From Oceanobacillus luteolus (GTDB lineage: Bacteria; Bacillota; Bacilli; Bacillales; Amphibacillaceae), in NCBI RefSeq assembly GCF_023715655.1, contig NZ_JAMBON010000004.1:62001-126000 (forward strand): 64,000 nucleotides of DNA, written 5' to 3'. This document shows, piece after piece, positions 24,543-51,100 of the stretch; positions within the stretch are counted from its first letter, which is position 1, and each line of letters starts with the position of its first letter. The notes beneath the pieces are model-generated. The model saw only the letters and a list, made by a program, of their open reading frames with translations, ran no database searches and was not told the DNA's origin. Both the position numbers and the translations under genes were made by a program.

Positions 24543-24862
24543 GACATGAACCAGATGATTTTACTTAGCCATACGACATGAAAGGCTTCCTCTGGTCATG
24601 AACGTGATGATTCGCATTGGATTCGTGACATGAGATGGCTCCTCTAGTCATAAATGGGAAAATTCGCATTGAATACGTGACATGAGATGGCTCCTCTAGT
24701 CAAGAACGAGAAGATTCATATGAGATTCGTGACATGAGAAGGCCTCTCTGGTCATGAATGAGAAGATTCATATGAGATTCGTGACATGAAAAGGCTCCTC
24801 TGGTCATGGACGGGAAGATTCGCATTGGATTCGTGACATGACCAAGACTCTCTTGTTATAAA
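24543..24862. repeat. Tandem array 1, 52-bp period
   Basis: The motif GACATGA recurs at 24575, 24627, 24679, 24731, 24783 and 24835, exactly 52 bases apart each time, with a partial unit at 24543. A unit reads GACATGAGAAGGCTCC, then TCTGGTCATGAACG, then AGATTCGCATTGGATTCGT; CATGA and TCATG are an inverted pair about 14 bases apart. It lies between the convergent cydABS and cydDC genes. No terminator was seen for cydC, so the array may form the 3' end of that transcript. Confidence 0.9.
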
Positions 24863-24897
24863 AAAAGATTTCCTAGGTTTCTTCACGACTTGATGTC

Positions 24898-26613
24898 CTA
24901 TCCCTGAAATACACTTTGTTCAATTTGTTTCAGTTCATAAAAATAGCCCTGTTTTTGCATTAAATCTTCATAATTTCCTACCTCGACGACTTTACCATCT
25001 TCCATCACGATGATCTGATCCATTTTTTCCAGACCATTTAATCGGTGGCTAATGAGAACAAGTGTATCATTCGCTGCCAATTGAAACAGCTCTTCATAAA
25101 TCTTCGCTTCGGTTAAGGAATCCATGGATGATGTCGGCTCATCCAACATCCAGATAAATGAGTTTTTCAACATAGCCCTCGCTATTGCAAGCCTCTGCTT
25201 TTCACCACCGGAGAGGTTTGCACCTTTTTCCAAAACTTGACTATTCAATTGAAGATGCTCAAGTTCTACTTTTTTAAGAACATCTTGCAATTCTTCATTT
25301 GTAGCATTTTCGGAAGCAATCGCTAAATTATCTTTGACTGTGCCGAAGAAAAAGTGATTCTCCTGTAAAACAACATTCGAATGCTTCCAGATGCTTTCTT
25401 TGTCGATATCATTAATATCTTGGTGATTTAAGAGAATTTCTCCAGCATCCACTTTATTAAAGTTTAGTAATAGGCTGAGTATCGTTGATTTACCCGAACC
25501 GCTCGGCCCAACGATGGCTGATTTAGTCCCAACTGGAAAACTTAGATTAATGCCATTTAACGTTTCCCGCTCCTCATCAGGATATGAAAAAGAGACATTT
25601 TTCATTTCTATGGTTGGCGACGAGTTTATGTCCAGCACTTCTGTTTCCTTTTCTACAGAAACTTGCGTTCCTACAACAGATTCCAGCCTTTTAGCCGCTC
25701 GCCTGTTATCTTCTAAATGGCTCGGAAAAATGGCCATTGATGTTGTATTCTCAAAAACAGTCAGAGAAATCATCAGTAGCATAGCAAGAAAGATGCCATC
25801 CAAACTACCTTGTGCAATTAAATAGGCCCCAACTGCCAACACTACAACCGATATAACAAGTGAAATAAATGTATTCACAGATTCATTATACAGATGATGT
25901 ATTCCGGCTTTTTCTTGTTCCTTCACATAATCCTCCGCTATTGCTTCCAACGATTCTTCTTTTTCATCCAACTGCTGGTATATTTTCAAATCACGGAACC
26001 CGTAAAACAGCTCGGTAACTTCTGTGGATAATCTGCCTCTTTCTTCACGCAGCCCTTGATCGACTTTTCGTTGTCTCCAAGCGAAGAATGCAGGAATGAG
26101 CACAGTCGTCAAGATAAATCCAGTGAAAATAATAAGCGCGTGTACCCATGAGAAAAAAGCGGTAAAGAAAATGGTGCATAAAAATACGAGCAAGAGAACG
26201 ATTGGCGGATAGAAGACCCTTAAGAAGAAGTTCTGCAAAGTTTCTACATCTCCGACAATCCGTGCTAAAAGATCTCCGCTCCGGAATTTCTGGAATATCC
26301 GTGGAGCAAGTGGTTCCAACCTTTCATAGAAAGATACACGAATATTACTGAGCATTGTAAATGTCCCACGATGGGAATAGTATCTTTCTCCGTAACGACT
26401 GACTGCGGAAATGATTCCTAATAATTTCACAGTCGCCACAAGAATCATCAACGTATAAATCGGTGGAGCGAATGCAGCTTGAGAAATCAGGTACCCACTA
26501 GCTGAAAACAATCCAACTGCTGTAATTCCACCAATAAAACCACAAATGACGGATAGTAAGATATCTTTTTTCTCTTTAAACAGTAAACGGATGATGACGG
26601 ATAGATCCTTCAT
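24898..26613 (-). CDS. cydC: Heterodimeric ABC exporter subunit CydC
   Basis: Half of the CydDC exporter required to assemble cytochrome bd (it moves glutathione/cysteine or heme-related compounds in other bacteria). Six N-terminal helices (about 15-310), then an ATPase domain with GPSGSGKST, LSGGEKQRL and MLDEPTSSMD. 571 aa. The start lies four bases inside the end of cydD (overlap), after GGAGGTGAGCGGGA. By homology to B. subtilis this is the second gene of the pair. It is convergent to cydABS. Confidence 0.92.
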   Translation of the reverse strand: MKDLSVIIRLLFKEKKDILLSVICGFIGGITAVGLFSASGYLISQAAFAPPIYTLMILVATVKLLGIISAVSRYGERYYSHRGTFTMLSNIRVSFYERLEPLAPRIFQKFRSGDLLARIVGDVETLQNFFLRVFYPPIVLLLVFLCTIFFTAFFSWVHALIIFTGFILTTVLIPAFFAWRQRKVDQGLREERGRLSTEVTELFYGFRDLKIYQQLDEKEESLEAIAEDYVKEQEKAGIHHLYNESVNTFISLVISVVVLAVGAYLIAQGSLDGIFLAMLLMISLTVFENTTSMAIFPSHLEDNRRAAKRLESVVGTQVSVEKETEVLDINSSPTIEMKNVSFSYPDEERETLNGINLSFPVGTKSAIVGPSGSGKSTILSLLLNFNKVDAGEILLNHQDINDIDKESIWKHSNVVLQENHFFFGTVKDNLAIASENATNEELQDVLKKVELEHLQLNSQVLEKGANLSGGEKQRLAIARAMLKNSFIWMLDEPTSSMDSLTEAKIYEELFQLAANDTLVLISHRLNGLEKMDQIIVMEDGKVVEVGNYEDLMQKQGYFYELKQIEQSVFQG

Positions 26614-28340
26614 TCCCGCTCACCTCCTTGCTGCAGAGTTACCATGGAGCGGTATTGGGAATTGGATTCTAACAACTCTTCATGACTTCCAATTGCGGCT
26701 ATTTCTCCTTCTTCCATTAATAGAATTTGATCTGCATGTTTAATGGTGTGTAAACGATGAGCTACTGTAATAATGATAGCTTCCTTTCCAAGTTCTTGAA
26801 TCGATGTTTGGAGGACTTTCTCCGTACGTAAATCCAGGCCGGTTGTCGGCTCATCAAAAAGAACAATGGAAGGTTTTTTTAAGAAGGCACGCGCTAAAGC
26901 AATCCGTTGCTTCTCTCCTCCTGAGAGTCCGCGACCAGCTTCTCCGACTTGTGTGTCATACCCTTTTTCAAGGGTTGCCACTAGTTCGGATATTCCAGCC
27001 TTTTCTCCTGCAGCTTCTATCTCTGCGCGTGTAGCATTTTTCCTTCCACCAATCGCAATATTTTCAGCAATGGTACCCGAAAATAGGTATGGATGTTGCG
27101 AGATATAGCTGAGCTCATTGAACCAGTCCGCTTCAAGATAATGTGACCTGGATTTTCCATTGATATATATTTCCCCATCTGCATATGGAACAAGTCCAGC
27201 AATCACATGAAGCAATGTCGATTTTCCCGCACCTGTTTTCCCGATGATCGCTATCTTTTGATAAGGTTCAATTATAAGAGAGATATCATTTAATGAAAAA
27301 TTGCCTTCATCATATTTAAAGTTAATATGCTCCAATTCAATCATAGGAGGTTCTGTCAACTGAATAGCAGCCTTCCCCCATTCTACCGGTGAATCAGGAG
27401 CTTCCAATTCACCTTGTAACTTATTGAATGCTCCCATGCTTCCTCTCCCTGTATGAAAAGCACTACCAAGATCTTTCAATTTATTATAAAATTCTGGAGC
27501 GAGTACGAGCATGAGAAAACCAGTGAAAAAGCTGATATCCTGGAAAATAATCAATCGGATTGCCACTTCGAGTGCTATCAACCCCATACTAAGCATGGAA
27601 ATGAATTCGAGTGCGAGTGAGTTGGCAAAAGCAGTTTTGAGGACTACCATAGTCGCATCCCGAAATTGAAGACTGCTTTCTTTTATTTCCTCTCTTTGTT
27701 CTTTAGAACGGCCATATAATTTCAGTGTTGTTAATCCTTGAAGAGTATCAAGGAATTTACCAGAAAAAGCAGCCATCTTATCTAGTTGCTCCTCCGATTT
27801 ATCTTTCGTATTAAAACCAATGATAATCATAAATATTGGAATAAACGGAGCAGTAATTAGAATGATGACACCAGTCATCCAATGTTCCGCGAATATCATT
27901 GCAAGTAATAAAATTGGAATGATCAATGATTGAATCACTTGTGGGATGTAGCTGCTATAATAATCATCCACCTCATCAACCGTATCCATCATGACGCTAA
28001 CCTTTTCCCCAGATTTCTCATACATCGCAGCTTGCATATTCGTCCGAGCATATTTATTCAATAATTTTTTTCGTAAATCTTGCTTCACCGTTGCAGCAAG
28101 TTGCACCCCAATTTTGCCATTCAAGTAGTTGAAGACGGTACGTCCTAATAATGCAACTAGTAAAAATAATATATACGAAACAAGTTCAGCGAATGCTGTA
28201 CCTTGCAAGAATGCTTTATCAACAATCAGCACAAGAAGATAAGCTTGTGCGATAATACTGATTCCACTCAGAACGGAAAAAATAGTCATGCCTATCAATT
28301 TTCCCCGGTGTTCTTTTGCGATCTCTCTCATTCCGTTCAT
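26610..28340 (-). CDS. cydD: Heterodimeric ABC exporter subunit CydD
   Basis: Partner of CydC, 576 aa with six membrane helices and an ATPase domain (GKTGAGKST, LSGGEKQRI, LFDEPTTGLD). Starts MNGMREIAKEHRGKL after AGGAGGTTAAGG. The family role is cytochrome bd assembly, which fits the location beside cydABS. It is divergent from the tetR gene; the 180-base gap between them contains two strong palindromic operators, so the TetR protein may affect cydDC as well as itself. Confidence 0.92.
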   Translation of the reverse strand: MNGMREIAKEHRGKLIGMTIFSVLSGISIIAQAYLLVLIVDKAFLQGTAFAELVSYILFLLVALLGRTVFNYLNGKIGVQLAATVKQDLRKKLLNKYARTNMQAAMYEKSGEKVSVMMDTVDEVDDYYSSYIPQVIQSLIIPILLLAMIFAEHWMTGVIILITAPFIPIFMIIIGFNTKDKSEEQLDKMAAFSGKFLDTLQGLTTLKLYGRSKEQREEIKESSLQFRDATMVVLKTAFANSLALEFISMLSMGLIALEVAIRLIIFQDISFFTGFLMLVLAPEFYNKLKDLGSAFHTGRGSMGAFNKLQGELEAPDSPVEWGKAAIQLTEPPMIELEHINFKYDEGNFSLNDISLIIEPYQKIAIIGKTGAGKSTLLHVIAGLVPYADGEIYINGKSRSHYLEADWFNELSYISQHPYLFSGTIAENIAIGGRKNATRAEIEAAGEKAGISELVATLEKGYDTQVGEAGRGLSGGEKQRIALARAFLKKPSIVLFDEPTTGLDLRTEKVLQTSIQELGKEAIIITVAHRLHTIKHADQILLMEEGEIAAIGSHEELLESNSQYRSMVTLQQGGERE

Positions 28341-28449
28341 CCTTAACCTCCTCTCAAGAAGTGAACTCTTTCACATAAGTATACCCGAAATGCACCGGTT
28401 CAGTACAAGAGAAGGTCCTAAGTTAACAAAGCTGTCGAATTTAAGAAAT

Positions 28450-28478
28450 TTGCATTTACTAACCATTGGTTATAAAAT
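28450..28478 (+). promoter_or_regulatory. Promoter of the tetR-MBL operon
   Basis: TTGCAT (28450-28455) and TAAAAT (28473-28478) are separated by 17 bases. The spacer contains the first TetR-type palindrome, so repressor binding would exclude RNA polymerase. Confidence 0.7.
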
Positions 28479-28503
28479 GAATATAACCAATGGTTAGTAA
28501 ATG
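28453..28503. promoter_or_regulatory. Twin TetR-type operators
   Basis: Two 13-bp palindromes, TAACCATTGGTTA (28460-28472) and TAACCAATGGTTA (28484-28496), sit within one larger perfect inverted repeat whose 21-base arms (28453-28473, 28483-28503) are 9 bases apart. Centres are 24 bases apart. One lies between the -35 and -10 elements and one near the transcription start. Confidence 0.8.
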
Positions 28504-28522
28504 AGAGGAAGTGAGATCATCT

Positions 28523-29149
28523 ATGTCAGTGCACGAACGGAAATCAGATAGAACGAAAGAACAAATCTTAGGAGCAGCTGGAGAGCTGTTTTCCACAAAA
28601 GGCTTCGATTCTGTAACAATTAGACAAATTGCCAAAAAGGCCGGTTGCTCACATACGACAATTTATTTATATTTCAAAGACAAAGAAACCTTACTCCACC
28701 AACTATCAAAGCCCCCATTAGAGAAGCTGTACAATGAAATCGTAAAAATTTCAGCAAAAGATTCATCTCCGTCAGAAAGGTTAAATAGATTAAGCCAATC
28801 ATATATCTTATTTGGTTTAACATATAAAAATATGTACCGTGTCTTCATCAACACAGAAGCTTCTCGAGTTGACGAAGAAGAACCAGAATTGGAGATCAAT
28901 AAACTACGTCAATCCATATTTGCTGAATTAGAAAAAGTGATTGCACAATTCCTTTCCATTTCAAAGGGAGAGGAGTCACTATTGTTCACGAGAGTATTTT
29001 TCTATACCCTTCATGGAATCGTAACTACGTACCTGGATAGTAACGAATCGGTAGATGAATTATATAATCGATTGAAACTGACATTTGAGGCTGCAGTGGA
29101 AAGCTTACTTTTAGGTTTTCAAGCAAAATTAGATCTGGGGGTTGAGTAA
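28523..29149 (+). CDS. TetR/AcrR family transcriptional regulator
   Basis: 208 aa. The N-terminal helix-turn-helix (TKEQILGAAGELFSTKGFDSVTIRQIAKKAGCSHTTIYLYFKDK, split over residues 12-55) is the TetR signature; the C-terminal ligand domain is not family-specific to me. The ATG at 28523 is preferred over a GTG at 28511 that touches the purine-rich ribosome site. The gene overlaps or nearly abuts the MBL hydrolase gene and is preceded by two operator-like palindromes, so autorepression is likely. The ligand is unknown. Confidence 0.88.
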   Translation: MSVHERKSDRTKEQILGAAGELFSTKGFDSVTIRQIAKKAGCSHTTIYLYFKDKETLLHQLSKPPLEKLYNEIVKISAKDSSPSERLNRLSQSYILFGLTYKNMYRVFINTEASRVDEEEPELEINKLRQSIFAELEKVIAQFLSISKGEESLLFTRVFFYTLHGIVTTYLDSNESVDELYNRLKLTFEAAVESLLLGFQAKLDLGVE

Positions 29150-29150
29150 G

Positions 29151-29828
29151 GTGAAAGTGAAAAAGGTTTCTGAACATATATGGAGTTTAAAAATTTGGGT
29201 AGGCTTCCGTATTCATGTATGGCTTGTAGTAGATAAAGATGGAGTAACCCTCGTTGATGCGGGCATTTCCATCATGAGTAATACTATCATGAAACAAATT
29301 GAGTCATTGAATGCTGGACCATTAAAACGAATCCTATTGACACATGGCCATGCTGACCATGTTGGAGCCATTAAGAAAATTATCAAGAAATTTGATGTTC
29401 CTGTATACGCACATCGAATAGAAATACCATATACGGAAGGAGAGCTGCCCTATCCTCGAAGAAATAAAGCCCAACAACTACTTCCAAAAGAACTTCTCCA
29501 ACCACTCGAAGAAGAGGAAAATGGTGTACTGCTTCCTATTGGTAACTTAAAACCTTACCATACTCCAGGTCACTCTCCTGGTCATGTCGTTTACTATCAT
29601 GAAGTAGATCGTGTCTTACTTGCAGGAGATCTATTTACGACGAAAAAAGGAGAATTGAGAGGTCCTATTTCCGTGTTTACAGCAGATATGGTGCAAGCAG
29701 TGGAAAGCAGCACCATCATTCAAGAGCTAAACCCAGTAAAGCTTGAAGTTTGTCATGGTGATTCTATTATAGATCCCGCCAATCAATACACGGATTATCG
29801 CAAGAAGATGGAGAAAAAATATTACTGA
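29151..29828 (+). CDS. MBL-fold metallo-hydrolase
   Basis: Metallo-beta-lactamase-fold hydrolase of about 225 aa with the zinc motif HGHADHVG (about residue 62), downstream His in HTPGHSPGHV, Asp in LAGDLF and His in CHGD. This is the general class II hydrolase set (glyoxalase II-like or lactonase-like), not specifically a beta-lactamase. The start is uncertain (TTG 29142 or GTG 29151); the GTG is nine bases past GGGGG. It is co-transcribed with tetR, so its substrate may be related to the inducer. Confidence 0.85.
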   Translation: MKVKKVSEHIWSLKIWVGFRIHVWLVVDKDGVTLVDAGISIMSNTIMKQIESLNAGPLKRILLTHGHADHVGAIKKIIKKFDVPVYAHRIEIPYTEGELPYPRRNKAQQLLPKELLQPLEEEENGVLLPIGNLKPYHTPGHSPGHVVYYHEVDRVLLAGDLFTTKKGELRGPISVFTADMVQAVESSTIIQELNPVKLEVCHGDSIIDPANQYTDYRKKMEKKYY

Positions 29829-29860
29829 GGAAAGTTGTTCTCGTCACTGCTGTGAATATA

Positions 29861-29896
29861 TTAAAAAGGATAAGCAGGATCTGCTTATCCTTTCAA
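29861..29896. terminator. Bidirectional terminator
   Basis: AAAGGATAAGCAG (29865-29877) and its exact complement (29881-29893) form a 13-bp stem between the convergent MBL and YdbC-like genes; T tract on the minus side. Confidence 0.9.
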
Positions 29897-29926
29897 AAAA
29901 TGGAACATACAGGAGAGCGCAATTCT

Positions 29927-30145
29927 CTAACTGAAGTTTTCAAGAGTTTGTTTCAATTGAAGCAATTCTTCTTTTGTCAGCGTTATGCCTTTCCCCATTT
30001 TTTCATGATCTGGAGCCCAATCTCTTAAATCATACTTCGGCTTCCGACCATTCCAACTGATCAAGTTCAATTCCTTCGTCCAACCTTTTGTAGATTCTGA
30101 TATAACTGCAATGGTCTCTATAATTTCATATTGGATTCCTGCCAC
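29927..30145 (-). CDS. YdbC-like PC4-family single-strand DNA-binding protein
   Basis: 72 aa with the segment GWTKELNLISWNGRKPKYDLR, then APDHEKMGKGITLTKEE, typical of the bacterial YdbC/PC4 (p15 coactivator) family; the Lactococcus member binds single-stranded DNA. The start is taken at the internal GTG (30143-30145), eight bases after GGAG, giving MAGIQYE like its relatives. It lies 15 bases after the universal stress gene on the same strand. Its biological role is unknown. Confidence 0.85.
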   Translation of the reverse strand: MAGIQYEIIETIAVISESTKGWTKELNLISWNGRKPKYDLRDWAPDHEKMGKGITLTKEELLQLKQTLENFS

Positions 30146-30160
30146 GACTATCACTCCGTT

Positions 30161-30595
30161 CTATTTAATGATTAATACTTGGCACTTTGCCCGTTGTACG
30201 ATTGTCCCGCTTACACTACCAAGAAACAGCTTTTGTAAATTACTTAGGCCGCGGTGACCTACTATAATCATGTTAATATCATTCTCTTCCGCAAAATCAC
30301 ATAATGCTAAGGCTGGGTTCTTCTGTGAAAAGTCTGTAATAATCTCAGTCTCTACTACCTGACCTGAAGCTTGCAGTTCCTCTTTTATATTTTCTAAGCG
30401 AGGATAAAGGATTTCTGCATCCTTCATGGATAAGTTTCCAGCCACTGCAGTAGTATTACTTGATATCCCCGGGGTCACTACTGTTACGACATAAATCTTT
30501 GTATCCTTAACTAATTTTGCCTGAACTTTTGCTTCCTCAATTGCTTTCTTACTCAACTCAGAACCGTCATAGGCAACAAGGATTTTGCGCACCAT
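30161..30595 (-). CDS. Universal stress protein UspA family
   Basis: 144-aa Usp domain protein: N-terminal ILVAYDGSELS and the ATP-binding G-2x-G-9x-G-S/T pattern in VGHRGLSNLQKLFLGSVSGTIVQRA. It is therefore likely of the ATP-binding class. Followed closely by the YdbC-like gene and divergent from the C45 acyltransferase. A second Usp protein is encoded at 48.2 kb; the two are distinct copies. Confidence 0.9.
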   Translation of the reverse strand: MVRKILVAYDGSELSKKAIEEAKVQAKLVKDTKIYVVTVVTPGISSNTTAVAGNLSMKDAEILYPRLENIKEELQASGQVVETEIITDFSQKNPALALCDFAEENDINMIIVGHRGLSNLQKLFLGSVSGTIVQRAKCQVLIIK

Positions 30596-30747
30596 CTCTT
30601 CATCTCCCTTACTCTTCCTTTATATTTTACCAACAACGAATCCTTTCTACAAACAAAGGTAGAGCACTTTGTTTCCTTCTTTTTAAAGATTCTAGTATGC
30701 TTCTGAGTAAATGTATGGTCAAATTGACAAATAAATGAGGGATCATC

Positions 30748-31788
30748 ATGAAACAGGTTGTTAGCGATATCGTCCAATTCCGCGGGAGTCATTATGAGTT
30801 TGGAATTCATCAAGCAAAATTACTACAACGCTCCCCCATTCTTACAGCCCGAAAAAGACAGTGGGATAAGCGAACTTCCCGGCATTTCATCGTCAATGAA
30901 GAAAAAATCAAAGTAATCTTTCAACATTTCAGTCCAGAAATTTGGGAAGAGCTGATGGGTCTTGCAGATGGATTGGACATGAGCATAAAAGAAGCAGTCC
31001 GTGAATTTGGCGGCTATTATTTTGAATACGGTAAAAGCGGTTGTTCCATCTTAATGGGAAATGACTATATGATACGGAATTATGATAATGACCCGATCAC
31101 CTATGAGGGGCGTTATGTATTATATGCACCAACAGATGGTGGCTATGCAACGATAGGGCCCTCCATGCAGATTACAGGCCGAACGGATGGCCTCAACGAA
31201 AAAGGGCTCGCGGTTGGATATAATTTCGTGAATAGGCTGAGATCTGACGATGGATTTGTATGTAACATGATAGGAAGGCTCATACTTGAAAAATGTGCAA
31301 CTGTTGAAGAAGCAGTCAAACTATTAGAGGAGATTCCTCACAGACACTCCTTTACCTATTCACTTGTGGATAACACCGGTAGAAACGTAGTAGTGGAAGC
31401 TTCCGCAACGGAAGTACTGGTAAGGGAAGGAACTGTTTGTACGAATCATTTTGAGAACTTGACGAAAGAAAACCGCTTTCGAATGGATGATTCATTACGT
31501 CGGTATCAAGAGATAGAGAAACAGCAGAGCACGATTGTAAATATGTATGATGCATACAAGATATTAAATGATACAGACAAAGGTGTCTTCTCGAAAAAAT
31601 ATGGGGCGTGGGCTGGAACAATCCACACAACTGCATATTCACCTGAAAGTCTGCATGCTTGGATAGCACTTGGAGGAGACCGCCTGCCTTTTATTATCGA
31701 CTTCAATAAATGGCTTAATGGGAAAAATATAAATGTCAAACAAGTGAAGGGAGAGCTTGATGCAACCAATGGTTTTATTAACCGTTAA
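30748..31788 (+). CDS. C45-type acyltransferase/peptidase (AAT family)
   Basis: 346-aa Ntn-hydrolase related to acyl-CoA:6-aminopenicillanate acyltransferase and peptidase family C45. The likely nucleophile is C99 in KSGCSILMGNDY, which would become N-terminal after self-cleavage; the RNYDNDP and GLNEKGLAVGYN motifs near 110-160 are typical. Bacillus relatives have no settled substrate. GAGGGATCATC precedes the ATG. It is a single gene. Confidence 0.82.
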   Translation: MKQVVSDIVQFRGSHYEFGIHQAKLLQRSPILTARKRQWDKRTSRHFIVNEEKIKVIFQHFSPEIWEELMGLADGLDMSIKEAVREFGGYYFEYGKSGCSILMGNDYMIRNYDNDPITYEGRYVLYAPTDGGYATIGPSMQITGRTDGLNEKGLAVGYNFVNRLRSDDGFVCNMIGRLILEKCATVEEAVKLLEEIPHRHSFTYSLVDNTGRNVVVEASATEVLVREGTVCTNHFENLTKENRFRMDDSLRRYQEIEKQQSTIVNMYDAYKILNDTDKGVFSKKYGAWAGTIHTTAYSPESLHAWIALGGDRLPFIIDFNKWLNGKNINVKQVKGELDATNGFINR

Positions 31789-31870
31789 CTGAAGATATCA
31801 TTTTACACTATTCTTTATCACTGTTTATATGATATATTTTATAAAAAGATAAAGGATAAGGAGAAATATT

Positions 31871-32425: not shown

Positions 32426-32458
32426 ACCTCTAAGGCAGAAGCATTCCTTCGAGTAATT

Positions 32459-32494
32459 AAAAATGTCAGGGCTTATATGCCCTGACATTTTTTT
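32459..32494. terminator. Bidirectional terminator
   Basis: AAATGTCAGGGC (32461-32472) and GCCCTGACATTT (32479-32490) with flanking A and T tracts, between convergent genes. Confidence 0.93.
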
Positions 32495-35440: not shown

Positions 35441-35457
35441 GAATTCATATTCATCTT

Positions 35458-42811: not shown

Positions 42812-44563
42812 GTGAAGTTGTTAAAGGACAATCGATTCAGAGGGTTAACCGCCAATGATGTAAAACAGGATTTGATGGCGGGTATTACAGTTGGGATTGT
42901 CGCTATTCCTCTTGGAATGGCATTTGCAATTGCTTCAGGGGTGAAACCGGAATACGGTTTATACACTACTGTGATTGCAGGGATATTGGTTGCTTTATTT
43001 GGAGGGTCGAGATATCAAATTGCAGGTCCAACCGGTGCCTTCATCCCAATCTTGCTTGCGATTGTTTTGGAATTTGGCTATGAAGATCTGCTGATTGCCG
43101 GATTCATGGCCGGTATTATGCTCATGTTGATGGGCTTTTTTAAATTCGGTAATTTAATCAAATTCATTCCCCGGTCTGTAACCATTGGGTTTACTGCGGG
43201 GATAGCGGTGATCATTTTCGCCGGACAAATTGAGAACTTTTTAGGGTTAGAAGGAATGGAGAAAAAAGAATATTTCCATGAAACGATGATCCAAATATTT
43301 GAGAGGCTCCCTACCCTTAATTTGTACAGCATCTTAGTCGCTGTGTTAGGTGTTCTTATTCTCATTCTTGTACCGAGATATTTTCCACGTGTTCCCGTTT
43401 TATTAGTCGCACTAATCATTCCTGCATGTATTGCTTACATATTCTTTCCGGGAAAAGTGGAAACAATCGGTTCAGCATTTGGTGGTATTTCCCAAAGTCT
43501 ACCGACTCTACAGTTTCCTGAATTAACATGGGATAAAATCGTTACTTTGCTCCAACCAGCTTTTGTTATAGCAATGCTTGGTGGTATTGAATCATTACTA
43601 TCTGCGGTTGTAGCGGATGGAATGACCGGCAAAAGACATAATTCGAATCGTGAACTCATTGGGCAAGGACTTGCCAATGTTGTCACGCCACTTTTCGGTG
43701 GTATTCCTGCAACTGGAGCAATTGCCCGAACGGCAACCAACATTAAAAGTGGTGCTGTCAGTCCCCTTTCCGGTGTGTTCCAAGGGATATTCGTTCTAGT
43801 TACGATTTTGGCACTTGCGCCATTCGCATCCCATATTCCATTAGCTAGTATGGCTCCAATACTAATGCGGGTCGCAATCAATATGAGTGAACATAAATCA
43901 TTTGCTCATATCGTTAAATTAAGAACCAGTGATTCACTCGTCTTGGCCGTCACTTTCTTGTTAACTGTATTTGTTAATTTAACGGTTGCCGTCCAATTCG
44001 GTTTGCTCCTCGCCATGTTTTCTTTCGTTAAACGGATGAGTGAAGTGGTGGGAGTCGAGAAGGTAATTCCTACCCGTTTAAAAGAAGAAGAAAATTCCAA
44101 AGGATTGCAGTCAATTTGTCCAAAGATCGCCTTCTTTACTATTGAAGGACCATTGTTTTTTGGAGCAGCAGACAAATTTGAATCCATGATTACGAGATCC
44201 ATCAATAAAAAACCGAGCGTGCTGATTTTGAAGATGAAGCATGTTTCCTATATTGATGCAACAGGAGGCAATAACTTAGCCTCATTGATCCGCGATTTCA
44301 AGAAAACTGGTGGAACGACCTTACTTGCAGAAATGAATGATGACGTCTTAAATACGATTAAAAATAGTGGTCTATATGAAGAAATCGGTGAAAAGAACAT
44401 TTTCAGTGATGCAAGTAAAGCTGTCGACTACAGTTTAAATCTAATCAATGTAAATAAATGTTCCCGTTGTGGCAAAAAAGGCGCGACTACCTGCCAAGTC
44501 TATCTGGAAAGTCAACAACTCCGCTCTCAAGCTGATAGAGCGGAACATGGTGTAGTGAACTAG
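42812..44563 (+). CDS. SulP family anion transporter with STAS domain
   Basis: 583-aa inorganic anion transporter (sulfate, bicarbonate or related). About 12 helices (25-420) including IAIPLGMAFAIASGVKPEYGLY-like and AGPTGAFIPI segments, and a C-terminal STAS domain (about 440-545) with IDATGGNNLASL. An additional cysteine-bearing tail (NKCSRCGKKGATTCQVYL) follows STAS and is not part of the standard fold. GTG start after AAGGAGATGAA. Specificity cannot be told; no sulfate-assimilation genes are nearby. Confidence 0.88.
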   Translation: MKLLKDNRFRGLTANDVKQDLMAGITVGIVAIPLGMAFAIASGVKPEYGLYTTVIAGILVALFGGSRYQIAGPTGAFIPILLAIVLEFGYEDLLIAGFMAGIMLMLMGFFKFGNLIKFIPRSVTIGFTAGIAVIIFAGQIENFLGLEGMEKKEYFHETMIQIFERLPTLNLYSILVAVLGVLILILVPRYFPRVPVLLVALIIPACIAYIFFPGKVETIGSAFGGISQSLPTLQFPELTWDKIVTLLQPAFVIAMLGGIESLLSAVVADGMTGKRHNSNRELIGQGLANVVTPLFGGIPATGAIARTATNIKSGAVSPLSGVFQGIFVLVTILALAPFASHIPLASMAPILMRVAINMSEHKSFAHIVKLRTSDSLVLAVTFLLTVFVNLTVAVQFGLLLAMFSFVKRMSEVVGVEKVIPTRLKEEENSKGLQSICPKIAFFTIEGPLFFGAADKFESMITRSINKKPSVLILKMKHVSYIDATGGNNLASLIRDFKKTGGTTLLAEMNDDVLNTIKNSGLYEEIGEKNIFSDASKAVDYSLNLINVNKCSRCGKKGATTCQVYLESQQLRSQADRAEHGVVN

Positions 44564-44595
44564 TCCTACATTTTTAAAAAGTTTTAGATATGAAT

Positions 44596-44624
44596 TTGCA
44601 TTTCTCTCACACTCATGCTATACT
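44596..44624 (+). promoter_or_regulatory. Promoter of the cold-shock gene
   Basis: TTGCAT (44596-44601) and TATACT (44619-44624) with a 17-base spacer. Transcription from about 44631 would give a leader of about 116 bases, typical of temperature-regulated csp mRNAs. Confidence 0.65.
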
Positions 44625-44746
44625 AAATGTATTATTTTCGTTCGGTGAATAAAAGGATAGAAGTAACACAGTGTTGTTTCGTCTTGAATTGGTAACTTGA
44701 ACAAAAATAGTAATAAACGTGCTACAAGCACATGGAGGTTTTTTTA

Positions 44747-44947
44747 ATGAACACAGGTTCAGTAAAATGGTTTAACGCAGACAAAGGTTTCGGATTTATC
44801 GAAGTTGAAGGTGGAGACGATGTATTCGTACACTTCTCAGCAATTCAAGGCGAAGGCTTCAAAACTTTAGAAGAAGGTCAACAAGTTTCTTTCGATATCG
44901 AAGAAGGAAGCCGTGGACCACAAGCAGCTAACGTTACTAAATTATAA
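44747..44947 (+). CDS. Cold-shock protein (CspB/CspD type)
   Basis: 66-aa single-strand nucleic acid chaperone. The two RNA-binding motifs KGFGFI and VFVHF are intact and the full length is standard. The ATG at 44747 follows GGAGG by 8 bases; an upstream in-frame start covers the ribosome site and is rejected. The long leader suggests post-transcriptional cold control. A strong terminator follows. Confidence 0.95.
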
Positions 44948-44962
44948 TATTTAGTGATTAGC

Positions 44963-44998
44963 GAAAAAAATCTTCCTGTTCGCAGGAAGATTTTTTTG
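44963..44998 (+). terminator. Terminator after csp
   Basis: AAAAAAATCTTCCTG pairs with CAGGAAGATTTTTTT around a short loop, ending in seven T. Confidence 0.95.
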
Positions 44999-45027
44999 TT
45001 TCCAATTTAAATATCAAAGAATTCCTT

Positions 45028-45455
45028 CACAACTTCTCACGTTCGATCAGGACTCGAATTTAGTGTTTTCGCAGCACTTGTGAAGCTCTCATGTTCGATT
45101 GACGTAAGAATTTTGGTGCTCGTAGCATGTGAGAGGCTCTCACGTTTGATTGACGGATAGAATATAGGCGCTCGTAGCACGTGAGAAGCTCTCACGTTTG
45201 ATTAACGGATAGAATTTAGCCGCTCGTAGCACGTGAGAAGCTCTCACGTTTGATTGACGGATAGAATATAGGCGCTCGTAGCACGTGAGAAGCTCTCACG
45301 TTTGATTGAAGCAATAATTTGGCATCCCGTAGCACGCGAGAAACGCTCACGTTCGATTAAGGCTTGAATTTAATGCTGCCTTAGCACGTAAGAATCTCTT
45401 ACGTTCAATTGAATCATGAATTCAGGGCTACCCTATTACGTGAGAAGCTCCATGA
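45028..45455. repeat. Tandem array 2, 52-bp period
   Basis: The anchor CTCACG (or a variant) occurs at 45036, 45088, 45139, 45191, 45243, 45295, 45346 and 45398, with a partial unit at 45448; spacing is 50-52 bases, mostly 52. Central units contain ACGTGAGA-AGC-TCTCACGT, a perfect 8-bp stem with a 3-base loop, followed by TTTGATTGACGGATAGAAT and a GCGCTCGTAGC link. It lies between facing terminators of csp and ppaC. Confidence 0.93.
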
Positions 45456-45494
45456 AATAAAAAACTGAGACAGAAGCATTGCCTCTGTCCCAGT
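45456..45494 (-). terminator. Terminator after ppaC
   Basis: ACTGAGACAGAAGC (45464-45477) pairs with GCCTCTGTCCCAGT (45481-45494) including wobble pairs; six T on the minus strand. Confidence 0.85.
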
Positions 45495-45499
45495 CTATT

Positions 45500-46423
45500 T
45501 TATTTTACATACTCATCAGTTAATGTTGTAACGATTTGTTTCTTACGAGATACTACACCTTTTAGTAAGGCACGGTTATTTTGCAGTTCCACATTGAATC
45601 CAGTTGCTACATTAGCCTGTCCTCTTCCAAGGGCAAGCACTTCAGAATCATTATTGAGAATATCTGTTACTACGAATAGGAAAAGATCGAGACTTTTACT
45701 TTCAATAATTTGATTGATTTCCGCTTCAATTTCATCTTGTTTTTCATAGATTTCACTTAAATCAACCGTATTTACTTGAGCAATTTCTACTTTTGCATCG
45801 CCCATTGAAAATTCTTTCGCATCCATTGTTAACAGATCAGAAACAGACTTTTCACTTAAATCCGCACCAGCTTTTAACATTTCAAGACCATATGTCTCCA
45901 AATCCACTCCTGCAATTTCTGCCAATTCACGAGCAGCTGCCACATCTTCTTCTGTGCAGGTTGGTGATTTTAATAATAGGGAGTCAGAAATGATTGCAGA
46001 TAATAACAAACCAGCGACTTCTTTACTTCGCTCCACATTATTCTCTTTGTACATCTTATTTAGAATCGTTGCGGTACACCCAACTGGTTCTGCACGGAAA
46101 TAAAGAGGTTCTTTCGTTTCAAAGTTTGAGATGCGGTGATGATCAATCACTTCAACAATTTTTGCAGCTTCTATATTATCTGCACTTTGCTGGAATTCGT
46201 TATGGTCAACAAGCACAACTTCCGTGCCATCTTCTACTTTTTCAAGTAGAGCCGGAGCTTCTACATTAAAGTAATTTAAAGCGTACTGTGTTTCTTGATT
46301 CACTTCCCCTAATCTGCGCGCTTCCACATCTTCGCCAAGTTTTCCTTTCAAATCAGCGTAAACAACTGCTGAGCAAATTGTATCTGTATCCGGATTCTTA
46401 TGTCCAAAAACTAATTTTGCCAT
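45500..46423 (-). CDS. ppaC: Manganese-dependent inorganic pyrophosphatase
   Basis: Family II pyrophosphatase (DHH superfamily), 307 aa. [13 protein letters not shown] at the N terminus, VDHNE near residue 73 and VIDHHRI near 96 give the metal ligands; [10 protein letters not shown] near the C terminus binds pyrophosphate. Standard two-domain length without a CBS insert. It drives biosynthesis by removing pyrophosphate. Single gene ending at a terminator beside tandem array 2. Confidence 0.96.
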
Positions 46424-46628
46424 TATGCCCTTCTCCTTTTATATGTAATGAATGAGTTAACTTATGTAAATATAATCAAATTTTATCATATCAAACTTTC
46501 TCTTTCAATTATAGGACAGGCATGCATCTGGCCGCCGGATTATTTTACAATCGAATAGAGAAAAGCTAAACTAGTATAGGAAGTATGATTGTGAAATACC
46601 TTTCAAGATGAAAGAGGAGGAAATATAT

Positions 46629-47087
46629 ATGTCTAGAAAACAATTTAATCTAGCTAGAACTGCATTACTTAATTTTATAGAGGAACTAACGGAAGATACT
46701 GCTGATGTCCAAGCATCACCATTCAATAATACATTACGCTGGCATGTTGGCCACGTACTGACTTTCAATGAGAAATTATTGTTCCGTTACCCTAAAAAAT
46801 CTAATAATATTCCCGAAGAATATGCAGAACTCTTCGGACCAGGCACAAAACCTAGTGAGTGGACAAAAGAAGCACCCACATTAGAAACATTGATAAATCA
46901 ATTGCAAGAGCAACAAGAACGGGTTAATAACTTCGATGACCTCTTCTGGCAAACGAATGTATCGTTTAAAGTTCCATTTGGCAGCATTGAAACATTTGGT
47001 GACCTATTAATTATGCTCGCTCATCATGAGACAGAACATCTAGGCAAAATGAAAGCAATGCTTCAGGTAGTGAATGCGGAAAAATGA
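46629..47087 (+). CDS. DinB-family protein
   Basis: 152-aa four-helix bundle of the DinB/YfiT-like superfamily, probably a metal-dependent thiol transferase or hydrolase of unknown substrate. Putative metal histidines lie in WHVGHV (near 39-43) and AHHETEHLGKM (near 131-137). AGAGGAGGAAATATAT precedes the ATG at 46629. Its stop overlaps the start of the FAD oxidase gene (ATGA), so the two are coupled. Confidence 0.82.
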   Translation: MSRKQFNLARTALLNFIEELTEDTADVQASPFNNTLRWHVGHVLTFNEKLLFRYPKKSNNIPEEYAELFGPGTKPSEWTKEAPTLETLINQLQEQQERVNNFDDLFWQTNVSFKVPFGSIETFGDLLIMLAHHETEHLGKMKAMLQVVNAEK

Positions 47088-48190
47088 CAAATAAGATAAT
47101 CATTATTGGCGGCGGAATTGTTGGAGCAAGTTCCGCCTATTTCCTTTCCAAGCAAGGTACCTCTGTTACTTTGATTGACCGAGCGGATGATGGTCAAGCT
47201 ACTGATGCAGCTGCAGGCATCATCTGTCCCTGGCTTTCTCAACGAAGAAACAAAGCGTGGTATCGGCTGGTGAAAGCTGGAGCAAAAATGTATCCGGAGC
47301 TCATAGCAGATCTGGAAGCAGATGGTGAACTGGATACTGGTTACAAACGGGTAGGAGCACTCAGCATCCACCATGATAAGAAAAAATTGATTGCCATGCA
47401 AGAGCGGGCCATCAAACGACGAGAAGATGCACCTGAAATTGGAGATATCCAATTATTAGATGAAACAATGGCGAAAGAGAAATTTCCACTTCTACGTGAT
47501 GGATATGAAGCTCTATATGTAAGCGGTGCTGCGCGAGTTGACGGGCGTAAGCTGCGAGATGCGTTGATCCGTGGTGCAGTAAAACATGGAACTAAATTAA
47601 TCCACGGCAGTGCGGAGCTTTTAATTGAAGGTAACCAAGTTACAGGAGTAACTGTAGACGGGGAAAAATACTTTTCAGATCAAGTGATAGCAACAACCGG
47701 TGCTTGGATGAATGATCTGCTTGAGCCATTTGGGCTTAAAGAATTTGAGGTTAAACCGCAAAAAGCTCAAATTCTACATGTACGTTTTGAAAAATTGGAT
47801 ACGGAAAATCTCCCAGTCATTATGCCACCAAACGATCAATACATGCTCAGCTTTGATGATCATCGATTCGTCATCGGAGCGACTCATGAAGACAATGTGG
47901 GTTATGATACTAACTTAACAGTATTCGGTATAAACGACATCTTAACGAAAGCATTAGAAATAGCCCCCGCTTTGAAGGATAGTATATTTCTGGAAGCTCG
48001 GGTCGGTTTTAGACCAATGACAGAAGGATTCCTTCCAGTAATCGGCAAGTTGAAATCTGCTACCGGCCTCTTGTATGCAAATGGTCTCGGAGCTACAGGT
48101 TTGACTGCAGGACCATTTTTAGGCAAGCAGCTTGCTAAAATGGCTCTACATGAATCGACCGATATCAACCTTGAAGATTACCAGCTTTAG
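47084..48190 (+). CDS. FAD-dependent oxidoreductase, DAO family
   Basis: 368-aa flavoprotein of the glycine/D-amino acid oxidase (DadA-like) family. The dinucleotide motif IIIGGGIVGASSAYFLSKQG opens the protein; the C-terminal region RVGFRPMTEGFLPVIG near 305 and ANGLGATGLTAGPFLG near 330 bind FAD. The substrate is probably an amine or D-amino acid. It forms an operon with a DinB-type gene. Confidence 0.87.
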   Translation: MTNKIIIIGGGIVGASSAYFLSKQGTSVTLIDRADDGQATDAAAGIICPWLSQRRNKAWYRLVKAGAKMYPELIADLEADGELDTGYKRVGALSIHHDKKKLIAMQERAIKRREDAPEIGDIQLLDETMAKEKFPLLRDGYEALYVSGAARVDGRKLRDALIRGAVKHGTKLIHGSAELLIEGNQVTGVTVDGEKYFSDQVIATTGAWMNDLLEPFGLKEFEVKPQKAQILHVRFEKLDTENLPVIMPPNDQYMLSFDDHRFVIGATHEDNVGYDTNLTVFGINDILTKALEIAPALKDSIFLEARVGFRPMTEGFLPVIGKLKSATGLLYANGLGATGLTAGPFLGKQLAKMALHESTDINLEDYQL

Positions 48191-48195
48191 GTTCT

Positions 48196-48240
48196 AAAAA
48201 GTTAGACGTTCTACTCCAACCGAACGTCTAACTTTATTTT
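48196..48240. terminator. Bidirectional terminator
   Basis: AAAGTTAGACGTTC (48198-48211) and GAACGTCTAACTTT (48222-48235) form a perfect 14-bp stem with flanking A and T tracts, between the FAD oxidase and a convergent Usp gene. Confidence 0.93.
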
Positions 48241-48241
48241 G

Positions 48242-48658
48242 TTATTTAATAATAAGTACGGGGCAGTTTGCACGCTTGGCAACTTTGTGGCTTACACTCC
48301 CGAGGATAAGGGTTTGCAATTGATTAAGCCCTCTACTCCCAATGACGACACAATCAAATGCCCGTTCATTGGCAAACTTTACTATGGTTGGACCAGGATC
48401 GCCGTGAAGAATATGTGTCCCGAAGATTATTTTCGATTCATCCAAGCGTTCGCGAATAGGTCTGATTTTTTCTTTGCGCTTTCTTTCAATTTCAAATTGG
48501 TTATTGGAATGAAGAGCATCTTTCTTTGCTGTACTTTCATCAACGACGTAAACCGCATCGATTGCACTATCAAATTTCTGTGCTAATTTAATGGAATATT
48601 CTGTTGCTTTTATCGAATGTTCCGAACCGTCAACTGCAAGTAAAATACGCTTAAACAT
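48242..48658 (-). CDS. Universal stress protein UspA family
   Basis: 138-aa Usp protein with ILLAVDGSEHS at the N terminus and the ATP-binding pattern IGSRGLNQLQTLILGSVSHKV near 110-130. Start at ATG 48656-48658 with GGGGTGAACAA. It is a second, diverged Usp besides the one at 30.2 kb. It lies 41 bases after the YczE-like gene and probably shares its transcript. Confidence 0.9.
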   Translation of the reverse strand: MFKRILLAVDGSEHSIKATEYSIKLAQKFDSAIDAVYVVDESTAKKDALHSNNQFEIERKRKEKIRPIRERLDESKIIFGTHILHGDPGPTIVKFANERAFDCVVIGSRGLNQLQTLILGSVSHKVAKRANCPVLIIK

Positions 48659-48699
48659 TTGTTCACCCCACACAATTTAAATTTTTGATCAATAGGGAC

Positions 48700-49353
48700 T
48701 CAACTTGATTTTTCCCGCGCAATCATACGAGTGTTTCCATCAATTTTCCCTTCAATCTTACTGATTATACGTCCAAAGAATTGATAGGAATACTGGAATA
48801 TCGGGCTCTGGATGAACGTAAAGATAAATGAAAAGATAAAGACAGGACCACCAATCAGAAAGCCGACTACCAACACCAGCGTTTCAACTATTATCCGCAC
48901 GCGGCTAACGGACATGCCTGTTCTATCGGACAAGGAGAGCATAAAACCATCCCTAGGCCCGGAACCTACTCCACCGGCATTATACATACCTCCACCGAAT
49001 CCCATAATTACTATCCCCGTGATGATAATGATAATGTCCATCCATGTATTTGTAGCAGTCGGAAGAAAACCCATCCACATATATAAATCCACAAATGCAC
49101 CTACTAAAATAGCATTGATGAACGTGCCGAGTTTTATGTAGCGTCTATCCATCAGTAGCGTAACTAGAATCAATAGAATAGAAATAATAATCGCCCAAGA
49201 ACCAATCGATAAGCCAAAGTGGTCGAAAAGCGCTACATTAAGCACATCCCATGGGTGGACCCCTAAATGTTGAACATTGATTGCTAAAGTGATCCCCATA
49301 CTGAAAATCATCATACCTAAGAGAAAGAATACCCACCGGATTGTCTGCTTCAA
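48700..49353 (-). CDS. YczE/YyaS/YitT family membrane protein
   Basis: 217-aa protein with five or six helices and the signature GGVGSGPRDGFMLSLS near residue 130. Members are widespread in Bacilli without a defined role (YczE is required for surfactin and bacilysin-type production in some Bacillus). The TTG at 49351-49353 is seven bases after GGAGGG and is preferred to an ATG five codons upstream that overlaps the ribosome site. Confidence 0.82.
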   Translation of the reverse strand: MKQTIRWVFFLLGMMIFSMGITLAINVQHLGVHPWDVLNVALFDHFGLSIGSWAIIISILLILVTLLMDRRYIKLGTFINAILVGAFVDLYMWMGFLPTATNTWMDIIIIITGIVIMGFGGGMYNAGGVGSGPRDGFMLSLSDRTGMSVSRVRIIVETLVLVVGFLIGGPVFIFSFIFTFIQSPIFQYSYQFFGRIISKIEGKIDGNTRMIAREKSS

Positions 49354-49438
49354 GGTACAACCCTCCATTTATTTTTATCTTTCAAATAATATATCATATT
49401 CAGACAAAAATGCCATTGTTGTAATCAACCTGTTAAAA

Positions 49439-49466
49439 ACAAATTAGGCACGTATTGCATACAATA
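49439..49466 (+). promoter_or_regulatory. Sporulation-type promoter of the cupin gene
   Basis: CATACAATA (49458-49466) with AC (49439-49440) 17 bases upstream matches the sigma-K form mACm-N16/17-CATANNNTA; CATACAAT also fits sigma-E. Confidence 0.6.
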
Positions 49467-49500
49467 GACCGATAACTATACTCGAAAGGAAATGATTACA

Positions 49501-50064
49501 ATGTATTATGGTTCTAACTACAATCCATATTCTTACTATCCTCCATATTATCCTTACCCTCATCCTTATGAACAACCAGCTTATCCGTATACAGAGGACA
49601 GGTATTATCCGCCTTTATCTAATGAAGAAATGGATAGACAAGGAGACCATGGAAACCAGCCCTACGTATTTAATATTGAGCATGCCACCGAACGGAATCG
49701 GGCATTTCGCAGAGCTGTTTGGACAGGTCAACACTTACAGGTTACACTTATGCGGCTATTACCTGGGGAAGATATTGGATTAGAGATCCATCCGAATACG
49801 GATCAATTTATACGAGTGGAAGATGGACGCGGAGTTGTTCAAATGGGGAATCGCCGCAATAATTTGACCTTCGAACGACGGATTCGAGAAGATGATGCGA
49901 TTTTGATTCCAGCAGGAATGTGGCATAATATCACGAATACCGGCAGGGAATCACTCCATCTTTACTCGATTTATGCCCCACCAGAACATCCACGGGGAAC
50001 CATACACCGTACAAAACAAGATGCACAACATCATCACGGGAACCAACACAGAGCAGTAGATTAA
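49501..50064 (+). CDS. Cupin-domain protein with Tyr/Pro-rich N terminus
   Basis: 187 aa. The first 45 residues are very rich in Tyr and Pro (YYPPYYPYPHPYEQPAYPY), as in spore coat and crust proteins; the rest is a single cupin barrel (GEDIGLEIHPNTDQFIRVEDGRG and IPAGMWHNITNTG) that could hold a metal. The His-rich tail ends HHHGNQHRAVD. ATG at 49501 is ten bases past AAAGGA. A sporulation-type promoter upstream supports a coat role, which is an inference. Confidence 0.8.
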   Translation: MYYGSNYNPYSYYPPYYPYPHPYEQPAYPYTEDRYYPPLSNEEMDRQGDHGNQPYVFNIEHATERNRAFRRAVWTGQHLQVTLMRLLPGEDIGLEIHPNTDQFIRVEDGRGVVQMGNRRNNLTFERRIREDDAILIPAGMWHNITNTGRESLHLYSIYAPPEHPRGTIHRTKQDAQHHHGNQHRAVD

Positions 50065-50075
50065 TTATACACACA

Positions 50076-50108
50076 AAAGCCGTACGCATATTTACACTGC
50101 ATACGGCT
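50076..50108 (-). terminator. Terminator after ferredoxin
   Basis: AGCCGTACGCA and TGCATACGGCT pair with one mismatch; TTTTG follows on the minus strand. Confidence 0.8.
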
Positions 50109-50120
50109 CTTCACTTGAAT

Positions 50121-50360
50121 TTATCTATTTGCAAAAAACTCCTCCGCACGTTGCAGGAAAATTTCTTGATCTGGCGATAAATCATATTCTTCCTCGATTG
50201 CATCAACTGGGCATACCGCTTTACAAGCCGCACAATCAATACATACATCTGGATCTATATAAAACTGATCTGGACCTTCTACAATACAGTCAACTGGACA
50301 AACGCTTACACATTCAGCTGCCTTCTCCGATTGACATGCTTCTAAGATAACAAAAGCCAC
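50121..50360 (-). CDS. Ferredoxin, two iron-sulfur clusters
   Basis: 79-aa bacterial-type ferredoxin. The second site is a classic CIDCAACKAVCP [4Fe-4S] motif; the first has C9, C17, C21 and C25 with a seven-residue gap between the first two, the arrangement of seven-iron ferredoxins. A GTG start lies ten bases after AAGGAGG. Electron carrier of unknown partner; similar genes in Bacilli are annotated fer or fdxA. Tandem array 3 lies upstream. Confidence 0.9.
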   Translation of the reverse strand: MAFVILEACQSEKAAECVSVCPVDCIVEGPDQFYIDPDVCIDCAACKAVCPVDAIEEEYDLSPDQEIFLQRAEEFFANR

Positions 50361-50528
50361 CTGATTTCAACCTCCTTATAGCTATAATATCTCTCTATCA
50401 ATGATACGGCTTTATTTATGGATTGTAAATTAATTCGATTACAATTAGATGGGCTACTAAGAAGATTGATAGACACGAATTCATCAGGAGAAAATTATAT
50501 TCACTTTGTGTTTATGAGTGCTATTATC

Positions 50529-51100
50529 GACCGAAAATTTTTGGATACTGCTTGTTCGGGCGATTATAAGCACTATAATCGACCGAAGCTTCTCAAAGAG
50601 AATCACATTCGGGCATTGATTGAACGTATTAATGACCGAAAACGTCCATTCACTTCCTATTCGGGCGATTATTAGCACCATAAACGACCGAAACTTCTCG
50701 ATGACTCCAAATTCGGGCATTGATTGAACGTATTAATGACCAAAAACGTCCATAGAATCCCTATTCGGGCGATTATTAGCACCATAAACGACCGAAGCTT
50801 CTCGATGACTCCAAATTCGGGCATTGATAAACCGTATAAATAACCGAAAACGTCCATTCACTTCCTATTCGGGCGATTATTAGCACCATAAACGACCGAA
50901 GCTTCTCGATGACTCTACATTCGGGCATTGATTGACCGTATAAATAACCGAAAACGTCCATTGACTTCCTATTCGGGCGACTATTAGTACTATAAACGAC
51001 CGAATCTATCCGGATACTCTTAATACGGTCGATGAGATACATTATGAACGACCGAAAGTATTGGAAGGCTTCTCATTCAAGCGAATATATATACTAAACA
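50529..51100. repeat. Tandem array 3, 52-bp period with 104-bp alternation
   Basis: TTCGGGC or a variant recurs at 50555, 50608, 50660, 50712, 50764, 50816, 50868, 50920, 50972, 51024 and 51076, 52-53 bases apart. Each unit has CCGAA about 20 bases before TTCGG, an inverted pair. Two unit types alternate: one with GCTTCTCGATGACTCC and GCATTGATTGA, the other with AACGTCCATTCACTTCC and GCGATTATTAGC. It occupies the gap between the NERD gene terminator and the ferredoxin gene; no gene lies there. Confidence 0.93.

Follow-up and report, generated by a model that had tools for sequence, protein, structure and literature searches.

Tandem repeats of 52 nucleotides (nt) in Bacillus were reportedly described by Subirana and Messeguer in J. 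Bacteriol. in 2020. In 176 Bacillus genomes, 1886 of the 4029 tandem repeats have a unit of 51–53 nt; these satellites are constant in size and variable in sequence, carry short species-specific words and are of unknown function (PMC8161180). Subirana and Messeguer propose either a polymerising protein that needs a constant repeat size or small RNAs (PMC8161180), and the 52-nt repeats of B. coagulans are transcribed (PMC8625621). The sole helical-turn remark in the main text of PMC8161180 concerns the class with units of 20–21 nt; the strings "convergent", "palindrom" and "intergenic" do not occur in that main text, and Oceanobacillus is not named in it. A comparable design is known from E. 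coli, where the gyrase motif is symmetric about the cut and its 47-bp (base pair) flanks vary in GC content with a period of 10.75 bp; gyrase sites there are over-represented both in BIME-2 and downstream of operons with high transcription (PMC6379681). Here, we describe three tandem arrays in a window of 64,000 nt of Oceanobacillus luteolus (GCF_023715655.1, contig NZ_JAMBON010000004.1, positions 62,001 to 126,000), which are new members of the published 52-nt satellite class of Bacillales. That such repeats converge on 52 bp has already been published and is not new. What is new is a sequence-independent design of the 52-nt satellites, consisting of a helical A/T wave, a rule for the phase of the dyad and a bias towards convergent gene gaps; no report of these three was found in a literature search that most subscription papers lay outside.

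Each of the three arrays has at least four tandem units of 51–53 nt, mostly of identical length, and their genome holds several sequence families of equal size, other sizes being scarce, as in the published class. They are non-coding: all lie in gaps between called genes (plain open reading frame (ORF) calls, with ORFs inside the arrays masked), the 85-amino-acid ORF at 50418–50675, within the array 3 region, has no Pfam match, and the unit length of 52 bp is not a multiple of three. Further likenesses to the Bacillus repeats are the patchy occurrence among related species, the number of units, mostly 4–10, and the presence of short words plus their reverse within one unit (PMC8161180). Tandem Repeats Finder placed array 1 at 24575–24841 (period 52, 5.1 copies, 0 % indels), array 2 at 45069–45412 (period 52, 6.7 copies) and array 3 at 50555–51004 (period 104, 4.3 copies), the last also at 50634–51004 with period 52. 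The best period of array 3 is 104 because two 52-mers alternate in it, both of which end in TTCGG...CCGAA. The spacing given in a preliminary description of the window was recovered: five exact steps of 52 bp separate the GACATGA anchors of array 1 (24575, 24627, 24679, 24731, 24783 and 24835, with an extra copy at 24543), the eight units of array 2, described as mostly 52 bp apart, have dyad steps of 52, 51, 52, 52, 52, 51 and 52, and array 3, with nine of ten steps at 52, begins with one step of 53 before nine of 52, the final one leading into a poorly matching stretch. Dyad stepping recovered eight steps of 52 in array 3, and across the three arrays the step is 52 bp, with a few of 50, 51 or 53. 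A CRISPR array was rejected, as the entire 52-bp unit is repeated, linker included, where unique spacers would be expected.

The period sample of the source genome (4.0 Mb, 206 contigs) comprised 460 kb, in which 11 of 14 arrays have a period of 51–53 or a multiple of it; 800 kb of a congener (G009) gave nine arrays of the 52 type out of 12, arrays of at least 90 bp being counted in both. None of the six arrays of at least 100 bp in three other congeners (G018, G011 and G012; two arrays and 400 kb each) was of this type, which was present in two of the five congeners sampled. The sampled part of the genome bears out the single shared period of the preliminary description, far beyond what chance would give, with a peak at 52 and not an even spread of periods. 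The G009 sample also contains three arrays of period 55–56 alongside the nine of the 52 type. Another set, of 80 named Bacillales loci round one gene, has 1714 gaps, 31 of which hold an array (score ≥ 80, length ≥ 75). Fourteen of these belong to the 52 class, one of them (in L053) being probably coding; 15 belong to the 20–21 class, which is a broad bin for long multiples, and 2 to neither.

The units were tested for helical phasing by treating the consensus unit as a circle and comparing the A/T power at each harmonic (k) with that of composition-preserving shuffles; in a 52-bp unit, k = 5 corresponds to 10.4 bp. In 18 units taken by hand (ten from O. luteolus, five from G009 and three from the named loci) the power at k = 5 was 0.609 vs 0.248 (z 6.3), with harmonics 1–4 and 6–8 between z −2.1 and 1.3, and in 1000 random sets of 18 intergenic windows it never rose above 0.434. 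This hand-taken set omits some arrays; a repeat of the test with every array of the two period samples gave a 1.85-fold power at k = 5 for O. luteolus (z 3.9; 19 units, 11 arrays) and a 3.20-fold power for G009 (z 7.5; 11 units, 9 arrays), or z 2.5 and 8.0, respectively, with one unit per array. PMC8161180 prints 23 units, which had not been used before; they gave 2.93-fold (z 9.3), and 13 of them were individually at p ≤ 0.05. A further 32 units, from the named loci without L053 and from O. luteolus relatives outside the sample of that genome, gave 1.70-fold (z 4.2), and 1.59-fold (z 2.8, n = 18) with one unit for each array. The 10.4-bp wave is carried by AA/TT dinucleotides (2.18-fold, z 9.0), and 500 coding windows used as a control gave 1.04-fold (z 0.9).

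Inverted repeats were sought in the same circular units, and for 27 of 61 units the best one exceeded those of shuffles (p ≤ 0.05). In the window, array 2 has the dyad ACGTGAGA-AGC-TCTCACGT, both unit types of array 3 have an imperfect 13+7+13 dyad, and the consensus of array 1 has a weak 33-bp dyad, TTCGTGAC-N17-GTCATGAA, which is not better than shuffles (p 0.49). Under a fixed rule (score of at least 6, loop of at most 9), which repeats an earlier test on 24 hand-picked dyads, 28 of 58 units qualified and 30 were without a score-6 dyad; two near-duplicate published units were dropped from this and the linker-wave test, as well as from one set of the earlier test. The dyad centre lies in a G/C trough of the A/T wave in 27 of the 28 rule-called dyads as compared with 43 % of shuffled dyads (binomial 2e-9 if the units are independent, some of them being related). 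On both sides of the centre, mean A/T content reaches peaks at 5, 15–16 and 26 bp, separated by dips at 10–12 and 20–23 bp, and it dips at the centre itself (0) as well. Restricting the analysis to the linker outside the dyad, no closer than 17 bp to the centre, leaves the wave in place (z −3.1; 22 of 28 units), so that it is not merely a by-product of the stem. The pairing of the arms is only loosely kept within arrays. The common denominator of the class is a shape and no sequence: whole helical turns, A/T on one face and G/C at the dyad.

The arrays also prefer a particular gene context. Convergent gaps hold five of nine arrays in O. luteolus (background 69 of 425 gaps), seven of eight in G009 (112 of 780) and six of 13 at the named loci without L053 (321 of 1714), but one of five relatives of arrays 1 and 2 on other parts of the genome, which are also counted in the pool; arrays at stretch ends without two flanking genes (two from O. 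luteolus, one from G009) and one in L010 were left out. Pooled, 19 of 35 arrays are convergent vs 5.9 expected (p 2e-6); leaving out those of the window gives 17 of 32 (p 5e-6). Within the window, arrays 1 and 2 occupy convergent gaps and array 3 lies between two co-directional minus-strand genes; terminator-like hairpins separate the arrays from the 3′ ends of the flanking genes, in agreement with the position between terminators noted in the preliminary description. When 37 arrays were compared with their own consensus, 44 indels were counted per 921 substitutions, whereas the intergenic DNA of eight pairs of close species gave 283 per 1860 (Fisher 1e-14). The roughly threefold deficit of indels per substitution in arrays is consistent with a length constraint, in a comparison in which the repeat finder favours regular arrays, some pairs share a record and the aligners differ.

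We tentatively favour, with somewhat less than even confidence, the reading that the arrays act as DNA, as sites of bending or wrapping, and not as RNA. A typical 52-nt unit spans five helical turns and often has an imperfect dyad, the centre of which falls on a G/C-rich step; A/T-rich stretches on both sides, at distances of about 5, 16 and 26 bp, would place A/T minor grooves on one face of the helix. The 52-bp repeat (5 × 10.4) would maintain this phase over the entire array. The outcome would be a long, anisotropically bendable platform that needs no fixed recognition sequence to be wrapped or bent, and a drifting sequence of constant size would be accounted for in this way. Its preferred site would be the convergent gene gap, where positive supercoils should accumulate, and its likeliest user may be a DNA-wrapping protein: gyrase, by analogy with the E. 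coli gyrase sites and BIME-2, or HU. Beyond the observed period, class-wide phasing, dyad-phase relation, convergent bias and fewer indels, we infer wrapping, a protein partner and a topological role. The constancy of unit length in bacterial satellites that are unrelated in sequence has been open since the first description; a helical A/T wave locked to the dyad offers a concrete reason, with the shape kept and the sequence free, and points to DNA-wrapping proteins. If true, some Bacillales would hold many built-in topological sites at gene ends, similar to the enterobacterial BIME-2 but encoded in shape.

To our knowledge, no fixed 52-bp step with free sequence has been described for BIMEs. 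In E. coli, gyrase sites and the gyrase motif have dyad symmetry and phased GC content, as in the 52-nt class, and the BIME-2/REP arrays, of which BIME-2 hold gyrase sites, are palindromic, repeated and extragenic like the arrays described here (PMC6379681). In a 2025 preprint, wrapping by gyrase is likewise linked to deformability and to a phased GC content (PMC12393610). Unlike the arrays, the E. coli motif, of 130 bp and with a period of 10.75 bp, is not repeated head to tail, whereas in the 52-nt class dyad and wave are found class-wide at 10.4 bp, the wave being absent from arrays 1 and 2. The 20–21 nt Bacillus repeats resemble the 52 class in being non-coding, in the helical phasing of A/T (first 20-mer, k = 2 power 0.483 vs 0.233, standard deviation (SD) 0.053, 20 units) and in their convergent bias (9 of 321 vs 6 of 1393 gaps); they differ in comprising two turns, not five. 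It is conceivable, though we think it rather doubtful, that both classes of Bacillales satellites are a single kind of element, namely sequence-free, shape-coded wrapping sites with whole-turn units and an A/T wave (in the 52-nt class with a G/C-centred dyad), which would be read by gyrase or a histone-like protein and handle supercoils between convergent genes.

Several observations weigh against the bending or wrapping platform. The shuffles kept base composition only, not dinucleotides, and several units are related by descent; in O. luteolus the neighbouring harmonic k = 4 is raised as well (1.62-fold, z 2.8), and 500 intergenic control windows have a slight wave of their own (1.10-fold, z 2.6). 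In the window itself, array 3 is the only array with the wave (type A p 0.0135; type B weaker, p 0.07), and arrays 1 and 2 have none (k = 5 p 0.52 and 0.80, respectively). The idea of the preliminary description that every unit faces the same side of the helix stands as a link to helical turns and for the class as a whole, and is not supported as regards the phasing inside arrays 1 and 2. Predicted static curvature, calculated from wedge values, is higher than expected in the published set (t −3.1), doubtfully higher in the further units (t −1.8) and not higher in the window units; plain static curvature was rejected as an explanation, being clearly raised in the published families only. Substitutions that preserve A/T or G/C are not enriched in the arrays (0.231 vs a baseline of 0.284), an argument against strong selection on the wave at single bases. 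Phasing alone leaves the rarity of units of three (31) or six (62) turns unexplained. Five relatives of arrays 1 and 2 at other places in the genome have two flanking genes; one of the five is in a convergent gap and four are co-directional. The gyrase analogy appears good in kind and inexact in period (10.75 vs 10.4 bp), and the transcription of 52-nt repeats in B. coagulans (PMC8625621) is a further point on this side.

Three other explanations are possible; in our ranking, a polymerising protein with sequence specificity comes first, neutral growth in tolerant DNA second and a role as RNA third. The protein would be fast-evolving and species-specific, bind the dyad half-sites, polymerise with a 52-bp step and stabilise the nucleoid; this is the published suggestion (PMC8161180), sharpened by the dyads, and we consider it fairly unlikely. 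Dyads are present in 27 of the 61 units, species-specific signals have been listed (PMC8161180), and arm words recur by reading, both within a genome (TTCG/CGAA in several O. luteolus arrays, CTCAT or TCTAT in G009) and from one genus to another (L054, L061, L073 and G009 have GGTCACTCAT-like arms); TGTC-N19-GACA was likewise read in five published units and in L120. Yet arm sequences differ even among the arrays of one genome, arms often lose their pairing within arrays with few columns compensated, and no common protein was identified for the arrays, though no systematic search for one was made. Neutral or selfish tandem growth in tolerant DNA, in which the 52-bp step would be set by a length-measuring mutational machine or favoured by bent DNA, strikes us as unlikely. 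It agrees with the position of the three arrays outside coding DNA and beyond terminator-like hairpins, with convergent gaps being without promoters, with the coming and going of arrays (one in L101, none listed in the matching gap of L122) and with the occurrence of 52-type arrays in two of the five congener samples. However, growth alone would not give the dyad-phase relation, and indels per substitution are three times rarer than in other intergenic DNA, a comparison in which ascertainment by the repeat finder favours constant length. Nor is any process for duplicating a fixed length of 52 bp known to us, which also counts against it.

A role as RNA, in which transcribed hairpin repeats would act as sponges, base-pairing RNAs or bidirectional end protectors, is improbable in our judgement. 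Fold energies of 28 arrays have a mean z of −3.0 and −2.9 on the two strands, compared with −0.6 (SD 1.9) for 12 random stretches, and the repeats of B. coagulans are transcribed (PMC8625621). The arms of array 3 also covary between its unit types, with a covariation score reached by 1 of 500 shuffles; three of 13 arm pairs have changes on both sides, a number also attained by 175 of 500 shuffles, and seven cells have such changes, attained by 13 of 500. Against this, the 28 arrays have no strand preference in fold energy, the window arrays fold weakly (z between −2.4 and 0.0), and terminator-like hairpins stand between genes and arrays. G-T and A-C mispairs number 74 vs 45 over 20 dyad sets (array 3 duplicate subtracted), compensated pairs are limited to one in array 2 (in the unit at 45380) and none or one in the other dyad sets, and none of the three Rfam matches of the window at gathering scores overlaps an array. 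A 10.4-bp A/T wave would not be expected of an RNA. An RNA hairpin function was rejected, given folds that are stable on both strands without preference and few compensated columns inside arrays.

The features of the window, and the arrays found at the corresponding place in other loci, are collected in the table below.

Table. Arrays, flanking genes and terminator-like hairpins in the window, and arrays at the pyrophosphatase-type gene in other loci
Feature	Position	Strand	Remark
Array 1	24570..24878	.	Six GACATGA anchors at 52-bp spacing; convergent gap
Array 2	45018..45450	.	About eight units, steps 51–52; convergent gap
Array 3	50503..51080	.	Higher-order unit of 104 bp, made up of two alternating 52-mers
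Cytochrome bd oxidase subunits I and II	21970..24329	+	Left of array 1
Terminator-like hairpin with T run	24460..24494	+	Between left gene and array 1; by reading
Two ABC transporter genes	24898..28340	-	Converge on array 1
Cold-shock protein gene	44732..44947	+	Left of array 2
Terminator-like hairpin with T run	44969..44998	+	Ahead of array 2; by reading
Terminator-like hairpin of gene right of array 2	45462..45496	-	
DHH/DHHA2 protein gene	45500..46423	-	Right of array 2
Ferredoxin-like 4Fe-4S protein gene	50121..50360	-	Left of array 3
Terminator-like hairpin of NERD gene	51152..51176	-	Right of array 3; by reading
NERD-domain protein gene	51190..52089	-	Right of array 3
Arrays downstream of pyrophosphatase-type gene	L044, L061, L062, L071, L084, L101, L120: about 10930–11520		

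The three arrays had been described as unrelated, which needs some qualification, as a 33-bp dyad with TTC...GAA ends can be read, by eye, in the consensus unit of array 1 and in that of array 3. The words TTCG/CGAA were read, without statistics, in arrays 1 and 3, L235 and L242. TTGATTGA, reported to follow the right arm in arrays 2 and 3, is indeed present in both, albeit inside the dyad in array 3. As a link between the two arrays it was rejected as chance: they have four 8-mers in common, three of them overlapping, and at least one common 8-mer arises in 77 % of 300 register-preserving shuffles. Elsewhere in the genome, array 2 has relatives on five other contigs and array 1 a weak one on one contig; no relative of array 3 was found on the other contigs. 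Two of the Rfam matches in the window are a cspA thermoregulator (44692–44997, plus strand), which spans the cold-shock gene, and a 6S RNA (18979–19165, minus strand).

The array at L074 2413–2843 and the published B. thermoamylovorans unit 30_53_11 have, by reading, a nearly identical palindrome, GTCCAATAGAAC(C/G)GCTCT..TGGAC, in 52-nt-type repeats of two genera, which runs counter to the published view of no sequence conservation, as do the GGTCACTCAT-like arms mentioned above.

The DHH/DHHA2 gene to the right of array 2 encodes what we take to be a manganese-dependent inorganic pyrophosphatase type of protein. The gap downstream of this gene holds arrays of differing consensus, with period types of 52 or 20–21, in seven other species. 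Arrays of the 52 or 20–21 class are present in 7 of 78 such gaps. A hot spot at this place was rejected, the comparison with other convergent gaps being 5 of 43 vs 10 of 278 (p 0.037) at a locus chosen for the window's array. One of these arrays, at L101 10930–11290 in a C. firmus record, has a 153-bp period and 99 % identity, and another record under the C. firmus name (L122) has no array listed in the matching gap, possibly a case of recent turnover. Tandem repeats of 39–78 bp with GPGQVAGAMSPG-like peptide units, as seen by eye, occur in L044, L047, L048, L050, L051, L053, L054, L058, L059, L061 and L070 and probably belong to a coding repeat gene near the pyrophosphatase locus.

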